A stretch of DNA of 64,000 bases, taken from NCBI RefSeq assembly GCF_031127815.1, contig NZ_JARXHY010000005.1:248001-312000 (forward strand). The letters run 5' to 3'. Below are positions 1 through 38,590 of the stretch, piece after piece. The stretch's first letter is position 1, and each line of letters begins with the position of its first letter. This DNA comes from Pelagicoccus sp. SDUM812003. Lineage in GTDB: Bacteria > Verrucomicrobiota > Verrucomicrobiia > Opitutales > Opitutaceae. Both the position numbers and the translations under genes were made by a program. Below the pieces are notes generated by a model. The model searched no databases. It had not been told where the DNA came from and was given only the letters and a program-made list of their open reading frames with translations.

Positions 1-336
1 ACGACTGCGAGCGGTATGCATCTTCGCCGCGGCGGGAGTGATCTTGGTCAGCAGCTGCTCGATGTTCATATGAACGTCCTCGAACTCCGCCTTCCACTCG
101 ACCTCGCCCTTGGCGATCCTTTTCGCCAGAACCTCGAGTCCCTTGTGAATATCGCGCAGCTCCTTCTTGGTAAGCAGGCCGATGCTTTGCAGCATCGCGG
201 TGTGAGCCTTGTTCACCTCGATATCGTAGGGAGCCAATCGCTTGTCGAACGACACGGATTCGCCGAAGGCCAGCATCAATTCCGCTGGCCCTTTCGAAAA
301 ACGTCCACCCCAAGTTGCTTGAGCTTTCTTCGCCAT
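1..336 (-). CDS. argH: Argininosuccinate lyase, N-terminal part (cut by window edge)
   Basis: The protein begins MAKKAQATWGGRFSKGPAEL and continues through FEDVHMNIEQLL and AAKMHTARSR. These match the N-terminal hallmarks of argininosuccinate lyase (WGGRF, EDVHMNIE and HTARSRND). The enzyme splits argininosuccinate into arginine and fumarate, the last step of arginine synthesis, in the cytoplasm. Only 112 codons lie in the window; the remaining three quarters, including the signature loop with the catalytic serine, are beyond the left edge. The gene lies 69 bases downstream of two ExbD-like genes on the same strand and may be read with them. Identification is confident. Confidence 0.93.
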   Translation of the reverse strand, partial: MAKKAQATWGGRFSKGPAELMLAFGESVSFDKRLAPYDIEVNKAHTAMLQSIGLLTKKELRDIHKGLEVLAKRIAKGEVEWKAEFEDVHMNIEQLLTKITPAAAKMHTARSR

Positions 337-29224: not shown

Positions 29225-30316
29225 TCAGATGCGTATGATGACGCCGCCCGAACGAGGCGGTGGCGGAGGTGGAGTCGGATAGCGGTCTCGCGATTCGCGG
29301 TCGATATCGTCCAAGCTTCCATGATCGAGGGCGATGAATGCTCCTCCGTGCTCGTAGGTCAGATCGTGCATCAGCTTGGCGAACTTCAAGCCTGACTGCC
29401 CGAGGAACATGCCGCCTGATTGGATCACATTGGGAAAGCCGATCGCGTTGATGCGGGCGATGCGGTTGCCCTCCTTGTCCTTGTTGAGCTTGCGAATCTC
29501 CGCGATCACCGGCTCCGGCTTGCCAGTGAACTCGTCGCCGAAAACATAGATGCCAAACTTCAAGTCCTCCGCGTTGGGATCGTAGAGCGTGCGAATGGCG
29601 CGCTTGATGCCGGGCACCGGGTTGCTCTCGCTCTCGAAGGGATAGAGTCGGACTTGACGCACCATGGCCTCTCGCATCTCGGGAGAATCCTGCAGCCAGC
29701 GACCGCCCATGCGCGATCCCATGATAAAGTGCCCGCTCGCATCCAGAAGCTGGATACCTTTCACCTCTGGGTAGGAAGTGATGACTTCCTCGAACTTTCG
29801 CACCACGTGAGTGCGGATGAGATTGGTGCTGGTTTCGCGCATGCTGCCGGAGGTGTCGATGACGAAGGCGATCACGTTGCTCTCCACCGGCACGCCGATC
29901 GGCGTGGGCTGGATGACCTTCTGCTCGATCTCCGGATCGGTTTGCATCACCGCCATTTCCTCCTCGAGCGACTCGAGATCGCTCACGAACAGCTCCTTGG
30001 CCTTTTCCTTGTCCGAGATCTGCTGCCTCAGCTTCGCCAGCAAGGCGTCAAGCGTCTGGCGATCGCGCTCCAGGCGCTTGCGCTTGGTCTTTTCCAAATC
30101 GAGCATCACGTTCAGCTCGTCCTGCTTGATCTGGTAGTCCGCCAGCTTGAGCTTACGCTGCAGGACCGTGTTTTCCAAAATGCGCTGCAGCTTGTTGATC
30201 TCCCGAGTCTGCACGCCCATGGAAACGATAAACAAGAGGATGATCGCTCCGAAACCGCAGCAGATGCAGTCCAGAAACGACAAGCTGAACACCTCGGTCT
30301 TTCTTCTGCGCTTCAT
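29225..30316 (-). CDS. Membrane-anchored coiled-coil VWA protein with intact MIDAS
   Basis: 363 residues. A basic start (MKRRRKTE) leads into one membrane helix with FSLSFLDCICCGFGAIILLF at residues 10-29. About 90 residues of coiled coil follow (roughly 38-125), then a von Willebrand A domain from about 147. The metal-ion site is complete at its first motif: FVIDTSGSM, Asp154. The chain ends in a proline run (PTPPPPPPRSGG). The Asp in SFLDC lies at the same place as the proton-coupling Asp of ExbD and MotB helices. The start overlaps the upstream paralogue by ATGA. It is the last gene of a four-gene operon with an ExbB-like channel; a role as stator-type partner with a metal-dependent binding domain outside the membrane is inferred. 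Confidence 0.82.
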   Translation of the reverse strand: MKRRRKTEVFSLSFLDCICCGFGAIILLFIVSMGVQTREINKLQRILENTVLQRKLKLADYQIKQDELNVMLDLEKTKRKRLERDRQTLDALLAKLRQQISDKEKAKELFVSDLESLEEEMAVMQTDPEIEQKVIQPTPIGVPVESNVIAFVIDTSGSMRETSTNLIRTHVVRKFEEVITSYPEVKGIQLLDASGHFIMGSRMGGRWLQDSPEMREAMVRQVRLYPFESESNPVPGIKRAIRTLYDPNAEDLKFGIYVFGDEFTGKPEPVIAEIRKLNKDKEGNRIARINAIGFPNVIQSGGMFLGQSGLKFAKLMHDLTYEHGGAFIALDHGSLDDIDRESRDRYPTPPPPPPRSGGVIIRI

Positions 30317-31377
30317 AGGTCAGGCCAGTTCTCCGCTGGGCTAATCATGGCCCCGCCCGACGAGTTGGCGAGTCTCCAGAAATGCACTGCGGAACCCGGG
30401 TCGGGCATCAGCGGATACATGATAGTGTTGACAGGCAGCCTCAGCTGCAGGGCGTTCTGAGCGGCCCGAAGCATCGCTACGCGGTCCTCGTAGACGATCT
30501 GCCCTCCAGACGGATATTGCTCGGAAAGCGTGGGCAATCCGTCGCAGATGAGCACCAAGCGGTCCGGCTCGATCGGCAGTTCGTTCACGATAGCGAAGGC
30601 CTTCTCAAGATTCGCTCCGTCGGTTGGGGTGATGTCGTCGATGGCGTTCAGGACCTCGACCGTCAAATCGTTGTCCATGGGGTCGAACCAGTCGCGGCCG
30701 AATCCGGTTTCCAGGGGCACCAGGTCCCGGTTGAAGAAAATGATCTTGTAGCGAGCCCCTTCCTTCATGTTGGCGATCAGCCAGCGCAAGGCCAGTTTCA
30801 CCCGCTTCCACTTCGGGGCCTCGCGACGCTCCTTATCCGATTTGCTGGAGTAGTCGACCGCTTCAGCGATGGTGTCCGCGGTCATACCAGCGGAGGCCTC
30901 CACCAGAAACAGCACATGGTCTCCGAGGATGTCGAAACCGGTCAGGTACTGGCGGCGCACCGGATTGGGAATCGGTATCGGCGCCTTCTCCTCCTGCGTG
31001 GGCATGTTCTCCTTCTCATCGATCAAGCGACCGATTTCGCCCTCGATAGCGGCCAGCTGCTGCAGCAGCAGCTTCAGCTTCTCCTCAAGCTCCGTTTGCA
31101 GCTTCTCCTTCTCGGTGAGCCGCGCCCCGGTATCCTCGTTCTTCTGGCGGGTCGAGGCCAAGGTGAGCTTGAGGTCCTCCAGCTCCTTGTCCTTCAGGGC
31201 GATGTCGTTGTCCATCTCCCCGATCACCTCCATGATCTGAGCCTGCAGCTTCTCCATCACATCGGCGCGACGGCTAGCGGTCAGCACAAACAGCAGCAGC
31301 ACCGCTCCGAACCCGCAGCAGATGCAATCGAGAAAGGAGAGGCTGAAAACTTCGGTGTCTTTTCGCTTGTGACGCAT
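30313..31377 (-). CDS. Membrane-anchored coiled-coil VWA-like protein with degenerate MIDAS
   Basis: 354 residues, a paralogue of the next gene. The membrane helix contains the near-identical FSLSFLDCICCGFGAVLLLF (residues 11-30), followed by a coiled coil to about residue 125 (KEKLQTELEEKLKLLLQQL) and a VWA-fold domain. Here the MIDAS start reads FLVEASAGM, so the usual D-x-S-x-S is E-x-S-x-G (Glu160). A later Asp, in LICDGLPT, is retained. Metal binding is therefore doubtful. It is 24 bases after the Hsp70-like gene and overlaps the second VWA gene. The two paralogues probably assemble together, one binding and one structural. Confidence 0.8.
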   Translation of the reverse strand: MRHKRKDTEVFSLSFLDCICCGFGAVLLLFVLTASRRADVMEKLQAQIMEVIGEMDNDIALKDKELEDLKLTLASTRQKNEDTGARLTEKEKLQTELEEKLKLLLQQLAAIEGEIGRLIDEKENMPTQEEKAPIPIPNPVRRQYLTGFDILGDHVLFLVEASAGMTADTIAEAVDYSSKSDKERREAPKWKRVKLALRWLIANMKEGARYKIIFFNRDLVPLETGFGRDWFDPMDNDLTVEVLNAIDDITPTDGANLEKAFAIVNELPIEPDRLVLICDGLPTLSEQYPSGGQIVYEDRVAMLRAAQNALQLRLPVNTIMYPLMPDPGSAVHFWRLANSSGGAMISPAENWPDL

Positions 31378-31401
31378 TCAGTCGATTCGAGATGTAGTCA
31401 A

Positions 31402-32883
31402 CTATTGGAGACAGTGAATGAGCAGCAGTTGCTTGCGCCTGCCCGGCAGGGCGACCTCCAGCGAGTCGCCGGCTTTCAAGGTCGAGATCGACACCGCCTC
31501 CACGATGGTGCTTTTCGACTCCGCGAGCACCCAGCGGTCCTCCTCCGGCTTCAGTCGACACAGCTCCGCGGGCGATGGCGTCAGGTTGCTCTCCACCACC
31601 AGGTCGAAGGATTCGGACTCTCCGAAACCGATGATGAACTCCTCCTCGCCTAGCTCGTAGGCCAAGCCGTCGCAGACGATGTGGGTGGGATTGAGCGACT
31701 TGCCCTGGCGCACCAGTCGAATGGCTCCGATGGGCACGATCGAGGCTCCCGCTTCGCCATCCTTGCCGCTCGGCGCTTCCAGCACGATGCCGGTTTCCAC
31801 GCGGACGTCTTCGATGGACTCTGGCACCGTCCAGGATTTGCCGAGATTGGCCGCCCCGAAAGCGGCGCTTTCCGCTGGCAGCTGCTTGACCGCTCCGACC
31901 CCCTGGGCCGCGATCGCTTCCTTCAGCCCGTGCACCGCCGCCGCCCGCTCGGAGAGCAAGATCTGCACCGGACCTTCACCGGCCCCGAAGTCGTTGATCG
32001 CTCGCAAAAGCATTTGAGCCAGCACCTTGACGTAAGGAGCGAGATCCATGGCCGCCAGGTCCCTCGTGATGGTCATCTGGCGGGATTTCTCGCGGGTGGA
32101 AACCTCCAGGCTCGCTTCGCCGGACTTGCCCAAGTGGAAAAGCATGTCCCGCGTCTGGGAGTGAAACGCCTGCTCGATGCGACGATCCTCAGTGATGTCG
32201 AACGAGGTATGCTTGAGAAAACGGTTGGCCAAGGCGTGCACGAACTTCTCCTGCATCTTGCTGAAGCCGTGCTGTGGCTGACGGGAGAAGTAAACCCGTT
32301 CCAACCCGTAGTGCTTGTTGAATACAGTGATGTGCGTAGCGTGGAGCAGCAGGTCGATGTGAAACAGGCGCTCGCCTTCCGCCACGTTCCACAGCCCTTC
32401 GCTGTACAAAGAGGCGGCTGCCATGTCGACCACGCCCGCCACGGGAATCTGCAGGTCCTTCAAGATGCCGAGCAGGATGCCGATGCGCTGGGCCGCCAGC
32501 TCGTTGTCCTCCATGTAGTGCCCGGGCACCGCGATGATCACTCTCTCGATGTTGGAATCGTCCTCCCTGATGCGCTCGACCAGCTTGGAAAAGAAGTGGT
32601 AGGCGATCTGCGAATACGCGGTGCGGGTTTGGTTTCCTCCGAAACTCGTCGCCTGCAGCGAGAGATCGTCGATGAACGAGGAGTTCACTCGACGCGGGTA
32701 GACCTGCCCCAGCTCCTGCGCTTCCGAGCCGAACACCAGACCGTCGCCAGCCGAACCCGAAAACGCGTAGGCAGGCAGGCGCTCCGTGCGGTCGCCGAGC
32801 TTCACGGTACGCGACGAGCCGTCATCTTCAATCAGGACGCCATGCACGCCCACGTCACTAAGTTCCAATCCTAAAGTGGCCAT
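31402..32883 (-). CDS. Divergent Hsp70/actin-fold protein with FHA-like tail
   Basis: 493 residues. The N-terminus GLELSDVGVHGVLIED corresponds to the phosphate-1 loop of Hsp70 (GIDLGTTNS), and RVIIAVPGHYMEDNELAAQRIG matches the VPAYF...R region. DMAAASLYSEGL matches the EPTAAAL motif and FHIDLLLHATHITVF the phosphate-2 loop, but glycines are lost in both loops, so ATP hydrolysis may be weak or absent. No Hsp70 substrate-binding domain is present. The last 110 residues (EEFIIGFGESESFDLVVES ... LKAGDSLEVAL) have the strand pattern of an FHA domain, although the arginine of FHA is Phe here. It lies 23 bases after the ExbB-like gene. It is probably a cytoplasmic control subunit of the membrane complex. 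Confidence 0.68.
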   Translation of the reverse strand: MATLGLELSDVGVHGVLIEDDGSSRTVKLGDRTERLPAYAFSGSAGDGLVFGSEAQELGQVYPRRVNSSFIDDLSLQATSFGGNQTRTAYSQIAYHFFSKLVERIREDDSNIERVIIAVPGHYMEDNELAAQRIGILLGILKDLQIPVAGVVDMAAASLYSEGLWNVAEGERLFHIDLLLHATHITVFNKHYGLERVYFSRQPQHGFSKMQEKFVHALANRFLKHTSFDITEDRRIEQAFHSQTRDMLFHLGKSGEASLEVSTREKSRQMTITRDLAAMDLAPYVKVLAQMLLRAINDFGAGEGPVQILLSERAAAVHGLKEAIAAQGVGAVKQLPAESAAFGAANLGKSWTVPESIEDVRVETGIVLEAPSGKDGEAGASIVPIGAIRLVRQGKSLNPTHIVCDGLAYELGEEEFIIGFGESESFDLVVESNLTPSPAELCRLKPEEDRWVLAESKSTIVEAVSISTLKAGDSLEVALPGRRKQLLLIHCLQ

Positions 32884-32906
32884 CGGTTTTGAAAACGTTT
32901 AGACTC

Positions 32907-33755
32907 TTACGAGTAGGTGATCGGGCTATCCTCGTTCTCCGGAGTCTTCATCAGGCCGATGATTCGCTTGGTGGCGAACTCCTCCAGATCGATCAGCAGC
33001 TTCTCCTGCTTGGATTGCAGCAGGTGAACGAAGAACATCAACACGATGCTCAGCAAGAGAGCGATCAAGGTCGAGTTGAAAGCTAGACCCAAGGCCGCCG
33101 TCACCCCTGAAATGTCGCCTCGGATGGCTTCGTCCGCCAACGCCAGCGCCTCGCCGATACCGCGAACGGTGCCGATAAACCCTACCGAAGGGATGGCCCA
33201 AGCGATGTAGCGCACCAGCGACAGCTCCGACTCCAGCTGGTCGTAGGCCATTTCGGTTCGCTGCTGGACGGCGTGGGATGCGTCCTGGATGGAGCGCGTC
33301 GAATCGAAGCGGTGCAAGGCGGACAGAATGACGTCCGGCAGGATCTTGTCCCTCAGTCGCCCGTTGCGCGACACCTCGTTGCCCAGCTCCTTGTAGTGGG
33401 CCAAGGCCTCGTCGGGGAGGATGCGCTCGCCTTTGGTGATTCTCAGAAACTGGAAACCCGTCACGCTTCGTTCCCCGTAGATGCGCAGAAACTTGTAGGA
33501 GATGATGATGCAGGCCCAAAGCATCAGCATGAGACAGAACATCTGCTCCATGTCCTTCAAGATCATCACCACCGAACGGTTAGCGACGATGGGCTGGTCC
33601 GGATTCTGGCTAGCTTCCACCCTGCTGGCGATCTCGATGTCCTCCGCGATGGGCCATACGTAGTAGCGGTAGATCGAGCCGACGAACAGGATCGAGAAAA
33701 TCAGGCCTAAGGTTAATACGATAAACTCACGGGAAAAGAACCCTTTTTTCTTCAT
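32907..33755 (-). CDS. MotA/TolQ/ExbB-like proton channel family protein
   Basis: 282 residues with membrane segments near 10-32, 67-87, 185-205 and 225-250. The motif IPSVGFIGTVRGIGEAL corresponds to the ExbB/TolQ pattern of PxxGLLGTVxGM, and ALGLAFNSTLIALLLSIVLM to the conserved pore helix with its Thr. A large cytoplasmic loop lies between helices 2 and 3. Such proteins form the pentameric ring that conducts protons and drives a dimeric partner. The genes that follow encode membrane-anchored VWA proteins and not a standard ExbD. It is the first gene of the operon, with a 227-base divergent region before it. Confidence 0.85.
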   Translation of the reverse strand: MKKKGFFSREFIVLTLGLIFSILFVGSIYRYYVWPIAEDIEIASRVEASQNPDQPIVANRSVVMILKDMEQMFCLMLMLWACIIISYKFLRIYGERSVTGFQFLRITKGERILPDEALAHYKELGNEVSRNGRLRDKILPDVILSALHRFDSTRSIQDASHAVQQRTEMAYDQLESELSLVRYIAWAIPSVGFIGTVRGIGEALALADEAIRGDISGVTAALGLAFNSTLIALLLSIVLMFFVHLLQSKQEKLLIDLEEFATKRIIGLMKTPENEDSPITYS

Positions 33756-33982: not shown

Positions 33983-34603
33983 ATGAAGCGGAAGAACGCC
34001 ATTTTAACAACACCTGTCGCCATTCTGGCCCTCGCGGCCCTCGTTTTCAACACTGGCTGCGCCGGACCAGCCGCTTCCAAAACCGTCAAGGGCGGCGCCA
34101 TGGGCGGCATGGTAGGAGCCGCAGGGGGAGCCATCGCTGGCGAAGACGCGGCCGGCATCGCCACCGCGGGTCTCGCTGGAGCGGCGGTGGGAGCCGTCAT
34201 CGGCGGAGTCGCCCAAGCCCGCGAAAACAAGCGCCAGGACAACCTAGCCCAGCAACGCGCCTACAACCAGGCCATCGCCATGCAGAAGCGAGCCCAGGAA
34301 AAGGAGAAGGCCGAACTGAAAGAGGAACTTGAGATCGCCGAAGGTTTCAGAATCACCCAGGAGGAGATCGACGAAATGACCACTCGGGCTGAAGCCGCCG
34401 AAGCGGAGCTCGCCCAGCTGCAAAAGCGACGCGACGCCGCCATCGAGCGCAAGCGCACGCTTGAAGAGCTCGAGGAGCGCGAGCAGGAAGCCCTCGCCGA
34501 AGCGGCTCGCCTCGAACGCGAGCTGGCCGAGCTGGAAGGCGGCGAATCCACCGCTTACAACGAAACCACCACCGAGGAGATCGATAACACTCCTCAACTA
34601 TAG
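33983..34603 (+). CDS. Glycine-zipper lipoprotein with coiled coil
   Basis: 206 residues. The signal peptide ends in VFNTGCAG, giving a probable lipid-modified Cys near residue 26. A glycine-zipper region follows (GGAMGGMVGAAGGAIAGE; AGLAGAAVGAVIGGVAQ), and then a long charged coiled coil from about residue 90 to 185. Glycine-zipper lipoproteins are usually found in the outer membrane or periplasm. It is divergent from the ExbB/Hsp70/VWA operon, with 227 bases between, and is followed by a second lipoprotein. Confidence 0.78.
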   Translation: MKRKNAILTTPVAILALAALVFNTGCAGPAASKTVKGGAMGGMVGAAGGAIAGEDAAGIATAGLAGAAVGAVIGGVAQARENKRQDNLAQQRAYNQAIAMQKRAQEKEKAELKEELEIAEGFRITQEEIDEMTTRAEAAEAELAQLQKRRDAAIERKRTLEELEEREQEALAEAARLERELAELEGGESTAYNETTTEEIDNTPQL

Positions 34604-34646: not shown

Positions 34647-35420
34647 ATGAATAGCAAAGCCAAGATTTTCTGCCGAGCCGTGGCGGGCTTGGCTCTCGCA
34701 TTGTTCCTGCACGGTTGCTCCACAACCTACGAGATGCAGGTCGACGCCATCAAAAACCCCGTGCCTGTAGCGCCCGACGCCGATTCCTACGTGATCGTGC
34801 CGCGCGACCCCTCGGTCGACACCAACGACCTCCGATACAAGGAAACGGTCAACTGGATCAAAACCGCTCTTTCCGCCAAAGGGATGTACGAAGCGCTCGA
34901 CCCGCTGGAGGCGGACATGGTGATTGAAGTCGACTACGGCATGGAGGCCCCTCGGCAGGAGGTTACGGTGGTGGAGGAACCCGTCTACCGCACTCGCCGC
35001 GAGCCAGGCACCTACGTCACCCGCTCCGTGCGCGACCCCGAAACGGGGAAGGTGCAGACCATTCGCATCTACGTCCCTGGCCGCGCCGTTTCCGAGCTGA
35101 TCGGCTACCAGGAACGGGCCATCACCCGCATCGTCAACGAAAAGTACCTCGTGCTGACCGCGAAGGAGAACACCCTTGGGGAAGGTGGAGACAAGGCAGC
35201 GCAGGAGCTCTGGAGCGTCACGGTGACAAACGAGGACGAAAGCAACGACTTGCGCGAATACCTGCCGATCATGGCCTCCGCCGCGACGGACTACATCGGC
35301 GAAGACACTCAGGACGGAAAGACGGTTCGCCTCAAGAGCGACGACGAGGTCGTGGCTTTCGTCAAGAAAGGTCTCGCGAAGGAACGCCTCGAAAATACCC
35401 CGCCGCCAGCTTCACTATAG
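34647..35420 (+). CDS. DUF4136-like lipoprotein
   Basis: 257 residues. The lipobox LHGC is near residue 24, followed by STTYEMQVDAI. The core has YVIVPRDPSVDTNDLRYKETVNWIKTAL and DMVIEVDYGM, which resemble the DUF4136-type lipoproteins. The C-terminus overlaps the opposite-strand fusion gene by 59 bases (35362-35420). It is 43 bases after the glycine-zipper gene and probably co-transcribed. Role unknown. Confidence 0.74.
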   Translation: MNSKAKIFCRAVAGLALALFLHGCSTTYEMQVDAIKNPVPVAPDADSYVIVPRDPSVDTNDLRYKETVNWIKTALSAKGMYEALDPLEADMVIEVDYGMEAPRQEVTVVEEPVYRTRREPGTYVTRSVRDPETGKVQTIRIYVPGRAVSELIGYQERAITRIVNEKYLVLTAKENTLGEGGDKAAQELWSVTVTNEDESNDLREYLPIMASAATDYIGEDTQDGKTVRLKSDDEVVAFVKKGLAKERLENTPPPASL

Positions 35421-37806
35421 ACGACACCGAATCGGGTTTGTATCCAAGCTTTCGATTCCTCTCGGCTATCTCGAAGATCAGCCTCCAGGTACGTATCAGG
35501 CACCTCCATCCATGCCAAGCCGAGTGCTTGGGGTCGTACATGTGCGTCGGTTCAGAGGTCAACCCGTTGAGCTCGATCACGCGTATCCCTTCGCCTAGAC
35601 GCAGCGCTTCAGCTGATGGAACCCGAAGGTCATAGCGGCCGAAATGAAAGCCCTCCACCGGCGCCGTAAACCGATCGACCTCGTCGCGTAACCGCTCCGT
35701 GAGCAAGTGAGCGCCATCCAGAAACAGGGCTCCGCGACAATGCGTTCCGACCGAGGCCAGCCAGAAGCGCTCGCCAGCCGCTACGATTTCAGCTAAGCGC
35801 GCCTCATATTCGCTCAAGAAGAAGGGCGCCATGCGTACCGCTCTCGGATCCTTGAGGATCAAGGTCTCCAAGGTCGACTCGCCATCCCCCGTGACATAGG
35901 TCATACGCTTGTCGGTGATGGAGAAGATCTCGCCCTTCTTCCGGTCGGGGAAACGAAAGTAAAACACTCCGTACTCGCTTCCTGAAACATATTCCTGCGC
36001 GATCGTATCCTCTTTCTGATTACGCAAGAACGCCTCAGCCTCGATCCGGTCCTTCACGATGGTCACTCCCTGGCCGCGCTGGCCGACGTCCGGCTTCAGC
36101 ACCACGGGAAAACCTAGGGACTCCGCCTCCATGAAGTCATCGAGCGCCTTCAGTCGAGCCTGGATCGGCTCGGCAAGCGACAGGATCGAAAACCGGGCCA
36201 CCGGTACGCCGAAGCGTTGCAGGTGGGTCAAAATCTGCCCCTTCGATTCGTAGACCAGTCCGCTCGCCGGCATGCAGGGATTGACGATTGACGGCAAGGT
36301 CAGAGATCGGTGTCTCACCATTCGCCAAGCGATGTAGGGAAGGATCGGCCCGTAGACCGCCCAGACCGGCCAATATTCCCAGCGAATCAAACGCTGGAAC
36401 TTGCAGACCAGCAAGCGGCGCCCTTTCCAAGTGATACTCGCCACCAACAGCCTGCTTCCAAATACGAAGAGCAGCAAGAACAGCACCACTCCGAGCCAGG
36501 CCCAGGCTCCCATGCCCTCCACCAGAGCCAGTACTGGCTGCCCAAAAACGAACGACAGACCGACCAGGATCGGCGTCCAAATGCTGGCGGCCACCAGCAG
36601 GGCGAAGGCGAAACGCCAAAACCCTATTCTCAGAACGCCTGCGGCGAAATAGGTGGGCACTCGGCTGCCGGGGAAAAAACGAGTCAGAACCACCAGCATA
36701 ATGCCTTTCTTCTCGAACCAACGCATCCCGCTTCGCAGCTTGGTGGGTGACGCGAGCCGACGCAGCCCGGGCAGTTCCAGCGCCCGCGCTCCCAAGAAAC
36801 GTCCGATGAGGTAGATGCCTAGATCGCCCACGAAGATTCCCAGCAAGCAACCGGCGATCGCCACCCAAAGCGAAACGGTTCCAGCCGAAGCGAGCAGTCC
36901 CCCTCCAATGCAGGCGAGGTCTTCGCTCGCGAAGGTGGCGATGCCCAATAAAAGCCCCCCCATCCAGTGAGCGATCGGCTGAACCTCGACCGCGGAAAAC
37001 GAAACTCTGTCCTCATCGCCTCCTTCACCCGACCTGTCTTGAAAACCGGATACGAACGCCTCAACTCCAGCTACCGTTTGCTCCAGACGGTTTCCACGCG
37101 TCACCTTCAGCGTAGCGGCGTCTGGCCGGACCGCCTCCACCGCGCGAAGAAAGGAAGCCCGACCCAACTGCGGTGGACGGGCGCGAATCGCTAGCAAAGG
37201 CAGGTCGCTACGCTCCAAAAACCTCGAGCTCGCAAATAGATCCGCATCATGGATACGACGCCACCGGTCATCTCCCCAACCAGATCGATCCAAGAATCCA
37301 AAATCGGGCGCGACCCACTCAGCCAGCCATGTGGCCGCTCGAGCGAACGTTTTCAGAGCGGCGTTCAAGGCGCGATCGCCCAGCAGCTCCGCCTGAGGCG
37401 GTAGCGGGGCATCCACCAACACGATCGATCGGAGCTCTTCGCTCGAGGTCTCGGCGAACGCGGTCGCCTCCGCAGCGCCATACCCGATCCCCACCACGCT
37501 TACGCTGGCCCACTGCCCGGCGCCTGGAACCTCAGCGTCGCTCAACTCGGATGGGCTCCACTGCTCGCCCAGAAACGAGCTGGCCGAGATCCAATCGGTA
37601 GGACCGCCACCGGACCCGTTTCCTCTGGATACCAGACGCGAAGCTCGTGCTTCGTCAGGGGAAAACACGATTATCAAATGACGTGCCGGCGAGACGCTCA
37701 TCGAATCCATCGCAAACGAATTCGCCTCATCCCAAATGCCCGACCACTCAACGAGATGGGAAAGCAATAGGACGGATAGATAGATAAGCAAGAGCTTGCT
37801 TTTCAT
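35362..37806 (-). CDS. Hydrolase-like / DedA (VTT) / ATP-grasp fusion protein
   Basis: 814 residues in three parts. Residues 1-270: an N-terminal membrane or signal segment, then an alpha/beta-hydrolase-like region whose nucleophile elbow reads VVGIGYGAAEA with no Ser, so it is probably inactive. Residues about 275-460: a DedA/VTT membrane domain with VGDLGIYLIGRFLGAR and LTRFFPGSRVPTYFAAG. Residues about 515-780: an ATP-grasp domain with FPVVLKPDVGQRGQGVTIV, IAQEYVSGSEYGVFYFRFP, FHFGRYDLRV and VIELNGLTSEPTHMYDP. DedA proteins flip lipids in the membrane; ATP-grasp enzymes ligate carboxylates to amines. A membrane-lipid or cell-wall precursor ligase is a reasonable guess. ATG 37806 is chosen. 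It lies 25 bases after an NRDE gene. Confidence 0.8.
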   Translation of the reverse strand: MKSKLLLIYLSVLLLSHLVEWSGIWDEANSFAMDSMSVSPARHLIIVFSPDEARASRLVSRGNGSGGGPTDWISASSFLGEQWSPSELSDAEVPGAGQWASVSVVGIGYGAAEATAFAETSSEELRSIVLVDAPLPPQAELLGDRALNAALKTFARAATWLAEWVAPDFGFLDRSGWGDDRWRRIHDADLFASSRFLERSDLPLLAIRARPPQLGRASFLRAVEAVRPDAATLKVTRGNRLEQTVAGVEAFVSGFQDRSGEGGDEDRVSFSAVEVQPIAHWMGGLLLGIATFASEDLACIGGGLLASAGTVSLWVAIAGCLLGIFVGDLGIYLIGRFLGARALELPGLRRLASPTKLRSGMRWFEKKGIMLVVLTRFFPGSRVPTYFAAGVLRIGFWRFAFALLVAASIWTPILVGLSFVFGQPVLALVEGMGAWAWLGVVLFLLLFVFGSRLLVASITWKGRRLLVCKFQRLIRWEYWPVWAVYGPILPYIAWRMVRHRSLTLPSIVNPCMPASGLVYESKGQILTHLQRFGVPVARFSILSLAEPIQARLKALDDFMEAESLGFPVVLKPDVGQRGQGVTIVKDRIEAEAFLRNQKEDTIAQEYVSGSEYGVFYFRFPDRKKGEIFSITDKRMTYVTGDGESTLETLILKDPRAVRMAPFFLSEYEARLAEIVAAGERFWLASVGTHCRGALFLDGAHLLTERLRDEVDRFTAPVEGFHFGRYDLRVPSAEALRLGEGIRVIELNGLTSEPTHMYDPKHSAWHGWRCLIRTWRLIFEIAERNRKLGYKPDSVSSIVKLAAGYFRGVPSRDLS

Positions 37807-37831
37807 AGACGGAACCAGTGCCGGACCTCCC

Positions 37832-38590
37832 TTATTCTCGCAGCTCAGGGGCTGCGCGCTCGAGCTCCATCTCCTGCCCGCCTTCGAAACCGTCAACCTC
37901 GAACGGACGCGTTTGCAGCCTCATCAGAGTCGAAGTCTTCCGTATCGAAACCATGGTGACACATTGGGTTTCAGATTCCTCCCGTCTCATGAGCGGATTG
38001 TAGGCCGAACTCGGATGAGCCGTGTCGAAATGATAGGATATTCGACGTCTCAGGGAGCAGAGGCTGGCATCGTCGCCGCAGATCTCTATGTATCTGTTTT
38101 TTCGGTACGCCTCTACTTCCTCCGTTTGAAACGAGGAGGTAGTGAGAAATCGGATATCGCTAGCAAGGCGAACGATCCGACACCCATCCCATGAGAGTAC
38201 GACCGAATTCCCCAAGGACATAAGCCCTAAGAGAAACGGCTTGTATGAATCCAAGTCCAGACTCCGCAACCATCGCTCCGCCCCCGGCAGGCTGGCCTGC
38301 TGGCAGCAGCCAATGGTCAGGTCTCCCCTGCTCCGACCTCCGGAAAAACGCTTTCGCTGCAAAGCGAGCTTTGCCGTAGCCCCGTAGTTGTTGAGCAGAA
38401 ATGAGCACAATCCAGCTTCGTTCGCGCAGAGCCACGTGCCGCCGCCCTGTGGATCGCGAGCGAAGAGCAGTTTCCCGTTTTCCGATTCGTGCGCGGCGAG
38501 CGCCTCGGCTTCAGGGCGGATCTTTCGCTCGTCGCGATTGAAGCAAAGCGTCGCCTCGGTCGCCGATACGCTCCACGATGCGGTGCACAT
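37832..38590 (-). CDS. NRDE (TANGO2) family protein
   Basis: 252 residues, beginning MCTASW with the N-terminal Cys at position 2, followed by CFNRDERKIRPEAEA, which includes the NRDE motif. GGGTWLCANEAGLCSFLLN matches the next conserved region. In other organisms TANGO2 proteins are linked to heme or lipid homeostasis, but no reaction is established. Its start codon overlaps the stop of the DinB-like gene by one base (TGATG), and the fusion gene follows. Confidence 0.83.
   Translation of the reverse strand: MCTASWSVSATEATLCFNRDERKIRPEAEALAAHESENGKLLFARDPQGGGTWLCANEAGLCSFLLNNYGATAKLALQRKRFSGGRSRGDLTIGCCQQASLPGAERWLRSLDLDSYKPFLLGLMSLGNSVVLSWDGCRIVRLASDIRFLTTSSFQTEEVEAYRKNRYIEICGDDASLCSLRRRISYHFDTAHPSSAYNPLMRREESETQCVTMVSIRKTSTLMRLQTRPFEVDGFEGGQEMELERAAPELRE

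Follow-up and report, generated by a model that had tools for sequence, protein, structure and literature searches.

A probable proton motor with paired VWA-domain axles encoded beside an Hsp70-like gene in Pelagicoccus

A 64 000 nt stretch of the Pelagicoccus sp. SDUM812003 genome (contig NZ_JARXHY010000005.1, positions 248 001–312 000, forward strand; hereafter the window) contains a four-gene minus-strand operon encoding an ExbB/TolQ-family ring protein, an Hsp70-like protein and two membrane-anchored VWA proteins, here designated VWA-A and VWA-B. This cluster probably encodes a proton-driven inner-membrane motor of the 5:2 class, with an axle made of VWA-A and VWA-B, a target in the envelope and an adaptor of Hsp70 fold. 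An earlier annotation of the window (the original prediction) had proposed a stator-type motor in which a VWA domain replaces the ExbD or peptidoglycan-binding domain of the partner protein; gene linkage, an invariant Asp in the membrane helices, invariant pore threonines and the lack of a nearby ExbD support that proposal, which agrees with a published prediction. The features concerned are as follows.

32907–33755, minus strand: ring protein gene; ExbB/TolQ family, 282 amino acids (aa)
31402–32883, minus strand: Hsp70-family (actin-fold) protein gene; 493 aa, C-terminus apparently FHA-type, phosphate and adenosine motifs degenerate
30313–31377, minus strand: VWA-A gene; 354 aa, a single membrane helix (Asp17) after a basic N-terminus, then a coiled coil and a VWA domain whose metal site is degenerate
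29225–30316, minus strand: VWA-B gene; 363 aa, a single membrane helix (Asp16) after a basic N-terminus, then a coiled coil and a VWA domain whose metal site has an intact start, DTSGS
31303–31347, minus strand: membrane motif FSLSFLDCICCGFGA of VWA-A (Asp17); Asp and CGFG in 35/35 collected relatives
30245–30289, minus strand: membrane motif FSLSFLDCICCGFGA of VWA-B (Asp16); Asp in 35/35 and CGFG in 34/35 of the relatives that include the membrane region

Operon structure and distribution

The ring and Hsp70-like genes are separated by 23 bases and the Hsp70-like and VWA-A genes by 24 bases, and VWA-A overlaps VWA-B by ATGA. Coordinates re-derived from the open reading frames (ORFs) agree with the original prediction in this arrangement, and the common motif lies where it had been placed, with Asp17 (VWA-A) and Asp16 (VWA-B) in the lone membrane segment of each protein. 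The same four genes are present in four named relatives, three Pelagicoccus and 'Verrucomicrobiae bacterium DG1235' (L003–L006), whose VWA-A proteins are 77–79% identical to that of the window. A scan for terminators and promoters was at chance level (4 terminators against 4.5 expected; 1 promoter against 1.1 expected).

Distribution was sampled in genomes of the phylum and in plasmid and phage records. VWA-B is present in 19/132 genomes of the order and 24/387 of the phylum, the source genome included, and strong matches to VWA-A and to VWA-B fall in the identical 23 genomes (23/23) among the 387. A search of 50 697 phage and 72 556 plasmid records found no VWA-B relative at E≤0.01, and one of the plasmid records with VWA-A was empty at the same threshold. 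There were 34 other genomes positive for VWA-B, 31 of which entered the neighbourhood count. Two were omitted for weak VWA-B matches with in-frame stops (G018 and G272), and a third (G063) because the gene is cut by the contig end; there the usual order is kept from the ring gene through the Hsp70-like gene into the beginning of VWA-A. The order ring, (Hsp70-like), VWA-A, VWA-B is contiguous in 27 of the 31 genomes, and in 32/36 places once the window and the four named loci are added. The original prediction had named a rarity of ExbB-like genes beside the VWA genes as grounds for its own refutation, and these counts show no such rarity. Among the four exceptions, the contig of G055 stops after the Hsp70-like gene.

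The ring protein

As a single sequence, the ring protein matches PF01618 of Pfam at E=1.2e-14, which backs the earlier ExbB-like label, and a profile of its family detects TolQ chains (E=0.0034). The sequence suggests an extra N-terminal membrane helix relative to TolQ, giving four helices in total, the third of which falls under the threshold used in the hydropathy scan. In the profile alignment Thr196 and Thr229 fall on two threonines of TolQ, those of GTVWGI and ALIAT, which line the pore. Thr196, Asn227, Ser228 and Thr229 are invariant in 23/23 aligned ring proteins, and GTVRG and AFNST are present in 32/32 collected ones. A ring of essential threonines is also described by Williams-Jones et al. 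(2025, Mol Biol Evol; PMC12204202).

The alignments, window included, hold 26 VWA-A, 21 VWA-B, 22 Hsp70-like and 23 ring sequences; the relatives collected besides the window number 35, 35, 27 and 32, respectively, and key residue counts were repeated on all collected VWA and ring proteins beyond the aligned rows. Charged and polar residues are also conserved directly before the second membrane helix of the ring protein (Lys67, Glu70 and Gln71; window 33543–33557, minus strand): among the 23 ring sequences Glu70 is invariant, and Lys67 and Gln71 are at least 90% conserved.

VWA-A and VWA-B

The two VWA proteins have basic N-termini, with 4 and 5 Lys/Arg among the first 12 residues, followed by a single hydrophobic segment (hydropathy windows 15–33 and 17–35) bearing FSLSFLDCICCGFGA. 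The DNA pattern of this motif has two matches in the source genome, one in each VWA gene, and the reversed-pattern control has none. Chance can be discounted, since relatives sharing as little as 28% (VWA-A) and 31% (VWA-B) identity keep the motif. The helix Asp is invariant both in the aligned sequences (26/26 for VWA-A, 21/21 for VWA-B) and in all collected relatives (35/35 for each); the CGFG that follows it is likewise complete in VWA-A and is replaced by CGFA in one VWA-B (L070). Two proteins akin to the VWA-B domain that lack the membrane motif (L088 and L089) were excluded from the VWA-B counts; no ring or Hsp70-like match was found in the stretch examined around them. A Cys four residues past the Asp (Cys21 in VWA-A, Cys20 in VWA-B) is conserved in 35/35 and 35/35 relatives and perhaps helps to pack the helices inside the pore.

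The two VWA proteins are paralogous over their full length (hhalign probability 100%, E=1.1e-39). The VWA labels of the original prediction hold for the families and less well for the single sequences: the window's VWA-A alone has no Pfam VWA match at E≤1, and its VWA-B has a weak match to VWA_2 (E=0.018), below the Pfam cut-off. At E≤1, VWA_3 is found in at least 14/26 and VWA_2 in at least 13/26 aligned members of the VWA-A family (best among the matches listed, 1.6e-7 and 4e-10), and VWA_2 in at least 20/21 of the VWA-B family (best among those listed, 4.7e-5). Compared with solved structures, the two profiles match inter-alpha-trypsin inhibitor chain H4 at its VWA domain (E=9.8e-4 and 0.034), together with many coiled coils over about residues 35–130. 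The metal-site start DTSGS is kept in 21/21 aligned VWA-B proteins; the first metal-site position of the 26 aligned VWA-A proteins is Asp in 7, Glu in 14 and Arg in 5.

Lack of a nearby ExbD partner

Neither VWA protein of the window matches PF02472 (ExbD) at E≤1. The source genome contains 22 PF01618 matches, 18 of which have an ExbD match within 1 kb by coordinates, and 16 ExbD matches, 15 above cut-off; the closest of these to the operon is 18.8 kb away. By eye, the other three PF01618 matches without a nearby ExbD comprise a flagellar MotA with MotB (L112), a gene whose neighbours are TonB-like (L102) and a third with no visible partner (L099). The system thus has in common with ExbBD and TolQR the ring family, the pore threonines and an Asp in the partner helix, and differs from them in VWA proteins that lack an ExbD domain and whose helix has no detectable homology to theirs.

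Elsewhere in the window, a tandem pair of ExbD-like genes (PF02472; 406–1283, minus strand) has no PF01618 match within 30 kb on the contig. The source genome also has seven places, on contigs C3, C6, C9, C13, C14, C18 and C21, where two consecutive PF01618 matches are followed by an ExbD match.

The Hsp70-like protein

Taken alone, the Hsp70-like protein of the window gives no relevant match in Pfam (E≤1) or NCBIfam. A 22-sequence profile of its family detects DnaK/Hsp70 chains (E=6.2e-10); the Hsp70 label in the original prediction is therefore sound for the family, and finds no support in the single sequence. The homology to DnaK/Hsp70 spans profile positions 89–332, in the nucleotide-binding domain. 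The similarity stops near position 350, thus short of a substrate-binding domain, and the family further differs in an apparently FHA-type end; Pfam FHA is above cut-off in 3/22 aligned members (L058, L071 and L072), the window's own protein not being one of them. Against Escherichia coli DnaK, the DLGTT loop, the DLGGGT loop and the adenosine GG, which form the phosphate and adenosine motifs, are all degenerate: Gly stands at the first GGG position in 0/22 aligned proteins and at the two adenosine positions in 2/22 and 0/22, and the first Thr of TT is kept in 1/22 (2 gaps). To judge from these sequences, nucleotide binding has likely been lost. The top hydropathy window (134–152, 1.78) lies inside the Hsp70-homologous region and for that reason is read as buried core, and the protein as presumably cytoplasmic.

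Within the order, where G018 was dropped to leave 18 motor genomes for co-occurrence counts, the Hsp70-like gene is found in 12/18 motor genomes vs 1/114 others (Fisher test, 7e-12, phylogeny ignored). The protein of the single non-motor genome (L129) has an intact DLGTT at its start and looks like an ordinary Hsp70. The gene is missing from 6/27 contiguous loci (L060, L064, L066, L068, L069 and L070). A quick tree built from 23 loci, with four of these six among them, makes its absence a single change and flags L060 as a long branch; five rows of the tree have a shortened gene (L082, L084, L085, L087 and L090). Since one clade lacks the gene, the protein is accessory, which speaks against an obligatory role. 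The original prediction had the motor controlled by a cytoplasmic Hsp70-like subunit. The protein is a true Hsp70 relative, but given the degenerate ATP motifs, the FHA-type end and the clade without it, any part in control is conjectural.

The divergent lipoprotein pair

Two genes with lipobox-like starts, on which their assignment as lipoproteins is based, are encoded immediately upstream of the operon and divergently from it; the original prediction makes no mention of them.

33983–34603, plus strand: glycine-zipper coiled-coil lipoprotein; candidate outer-membrane partner, on linkage alone
34647–35420, plus strand: DUF4136-like lipoprotein; candidate partner, on linkage alone

Their Pfam matches fall below cut-off (PF13441, E=9.5e-4, and PF13590, E=5e-4, respectively). 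Among the 32 examined loci having a ring gene, the glycine-zipper gene is at the same place and in the same direction in 22, and the DUF4136-like gene is in place in 17. In the 132 genomes of the order, the glycine-zipper lipoprotein (E≤1e-20, weaker matches being dropped) is present in 17/18 motor genomes vs 17/114 others (Fisher test, 3e-11), and the DUF4136-like lipoprotein, after a match in G041 (E=6e-4) was dropped, in 10/18 vs 14/114 (1e-4), phylogeny being ignored in both. The split is slightly understated, as G014, where the lipoprotein genes lie beside a ring gene truncated by the contig end, is counted among the others. The pair also occurs in motor-less genomes, which weakens the idea that these lipoproteins are dedicated to the motor; they are better regarded as a separate module preferentially linked to it, and as a candidate for its target.

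Relation to known systems

The original prediction knew of no described function for this combination. The core of it, a ring with paired VWA proteins, has already been predicted to be a motor, by Williams-Jones et al. (2025), and so the core idea cannot be called undescribed. That paper reports vWA proteins tethered by a transmembrane helix, which occur in unlike pairs and co-occur tightly with tolQ-like genes that have no tolR/exbD. They are found mostly in Proteobacteria and Verrucomicrobia, and no function is named for them there. AlphaFold 3 models in the same paper place a vWA helix with a conserved Asp across the pore, ringed by threonines. The window system resembles these TPH-vWA/TolQ-like motors (their Fig. 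4c–d) in several respects. The VWA genes adjoin a TolQ-like gene (32/36 places), no tolR/exbD lies alongside in the source genome (nearest PF02472 match 18.8 kb away), the two VWA proteins are an unlike pair of paralogues (E=1.1e-39) found in the same genomes (23/23), the helix Asp and ring threonines are present (35/35, 35/35 and 32/32), and the hosts are Verrucomicrobia.

Compared by description, it has an Hsp70-like/FHA subunit and divergent lipoproteins that go unmentioned for them. An Hsp70-family subunit with degenerate ATP motifs, carrying an FHA domain in some relatives, and the divergent lipoprotein pair appear to be new as far as found. In the main text of the 2025 paper the words Hsp70, chaperone, DnaK, forkhead, glycine zipper and DUF4136 each occur 0 times, and word searches for 'vWA' in the available text of a 2026 review citing it (PMC12905483) and of a paper on MotAB evolution (PMC12505986) returned nothing. 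Neither the Hsp70-like subunit nor the lipoprotein link turned up in a literature search that reached few subscription papers.

The clusters of the PVC group with TPR, TolQ-like, TolR-like pair and vWA genes (PMC12204202, Fig. 4a–b) likewise have a ring and two unlike one-helix coiled-coil proteins with an Asp. They differ in their motifs (FQDII..., LLDTMCNTFGG), and in some the vWA gene is separate and GYF-domain genes are present. Related clusters, six in number and spread over five genomes (L136–L141; one genome, G049, also has the motor), comprise a ring-like gene and genes for two dissimilar one-helix coiled-coil proteins, whose motifs are of the FQDII and LLDTMCNTFGG types, the Asp being followed by Gly seven residues on. 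GYF-domain, about 1000-aa and vWA genes accompany some of these clusters, which as a set resemble the other vWA family of that paper.

Proposed mechanism

From these genes, their families and linkage, the invariant residues and the co-occurrence, we infer a motor in which five ExbB-like subunits would form a ring in the inner membrane, with one helix of VWA-A and one of VWA-B in its pore. The two proteins occur together in the genomes searched and probably form a heterodimer. Asp17 and Asp16 would alternately bind and release protons against Thr196 and Thr229 of the ring, and this exchange would make axle and ring rotate relative to one another. The axle would extend as coiled coils of roughly 90 residues across part of the periplasm and end in two unlike VWA domains, that of VWA-B, with its intact metal site, binding a ligand and that of VWA-A being structural. 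Torque or pull could then reach the outer envelope, where the glycine-zipper and DUF4136 lipoproteins are plausible targets. The catalytically degenerate Hsp70-fold protein, with its FHA-type end, would sit at the cytoplasmic side and serve as an adaptor for assembly or regulation, dispensable in one lineage.

Several observations weigh against this mechanism. Profile alignment detects no similarity between the VWA membrane helix and ExbD/TolR (0.3% probability, against 2.4% for a reversed control), and the alignment returned leaves the Asp residues unpaired; their equivalence is consequently argued from position, invariance and context only. Monomer predictions from five close sequences were unusable for both VWA-A (mean predicted local distance difference test score 43.2) and the Hsp70-like protein (33.9). 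The Asp of DLGGGT, in the second ATP loop, is retained in 16/22 Hsp70-like proteins. Three genomes depart from the operon order: VWA-B is on a different contig from the other three genes in G268; ring and Hsp70-like genes, the VWA pair and the lipoproteins are on three contigs in G008; and G398 has no ring gene within 4.9 kb upstream. The lipoprotein pair is present without the motor at L122, L123, L124, L125 and L128. The literature search described above found no experiment on this motor system.

A more elaborate version of the motor is speculative and, as a whole, rather improbable: a six-gene trans-envelope machine, in which a heterodimer-axle proton motor grips the lipoproteins, in the outer membrane, through its unlike VWA domains and is switched from the cytoplasm by an ATP-dead Hsp70 fused to an FHA-type reader. 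If true, it would to our knowledge mark the first case of an actin-fold regulator on a motor of the stator class.

Alternative explanations

Of the competing explanations, a ligand-gated proton channel or envelope sensor fares best, though we consider it unlikely. The VWA domains would bind a periplasmic ligand, the helices would act as a plug that closes or frees the ring, and the signal would be relayed inside by the Hsp70-like/FHA protein. The asymmetry of the metal sites, intact at the start in VWA-B (21/21) and degenerate in VWA-A (first Asp in 7/26), is sensing-like, and an FHA-type domain on the cytoplasmic side fits a role in signalling; yet the Hsp70-like/FHA protein is missing in one clade in which ring and axles remain. 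The characterized relatives that combine ring Thr and helix Asp (ExbBD, TolQR, MotAB and ZorAB) are motors, as PMC12204202 also presents them.

It is very doubtful that the VWA proteins are instead side-binding transducers of the TolA/TonB (SHLS) type, using an ExbD encoded elsewhere in the genome. The invariant Asp would be left without a role, residues 10–36 (the membrane segment) of both window proteins lack His, and the nearest ExbD match is 18.8 kb off. Such a mode is predicted for the first vWA family of Williams-Jones et al. (2025), and ExbD matches are numerous in the source genome (16, with 15 above cut-off).

A Zorya-like anti-phage system is scarcely credible, since the weak ZorA matches of the ring protein (PADLOC, best E=8.6e-7) are limited to the common MotA/ExbB-class core, the four operon proteins, to which the scan was limited, have no ZorB, ZorC, ZorD or ZorE match at E≤1, VWA-B relatives are absent from the phage and plasmid records at the threshold given above, and the neighbouring genes are for IMP (inosine monophosphate) dehydrogenase and a phosphoribosyltransferase, against which can be set weak matches of the VWA proteins, in their coiled coils, to LmuB and JetC models (best E=0.0025). 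A defence role was rejected, the ZorA core being the only part of the Zorya models that the four proteins match in PADLOC at E≤1.

The IMP-dehydrogenase and phosphoribosyltransferase genes adjoin the motor genes both in the window and in Pelagicoccus. Also in the window, an 844-aa ORF (35362–37896, minus strand) appears by eye to join a hydrolase-like part, a DedA-like membrane part and an ATP-grasp-like part in a single fusion.

Implications

With the proton motor as the preferred reading, the four genes give a predicted motor class a compact genetic shape, and named bacteria carry them all, namely strain DG1235 and three Pelagicoccus genomes. The class also gains three candidate partners, the Hsp70-like protein and the two lipoproteins, which are absent from the main text of the paper that predicted the class. 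This opens to test what VWA-tipped motors may pull on, and whether a protein of chaperone fold can regulate a 5:2 motor.

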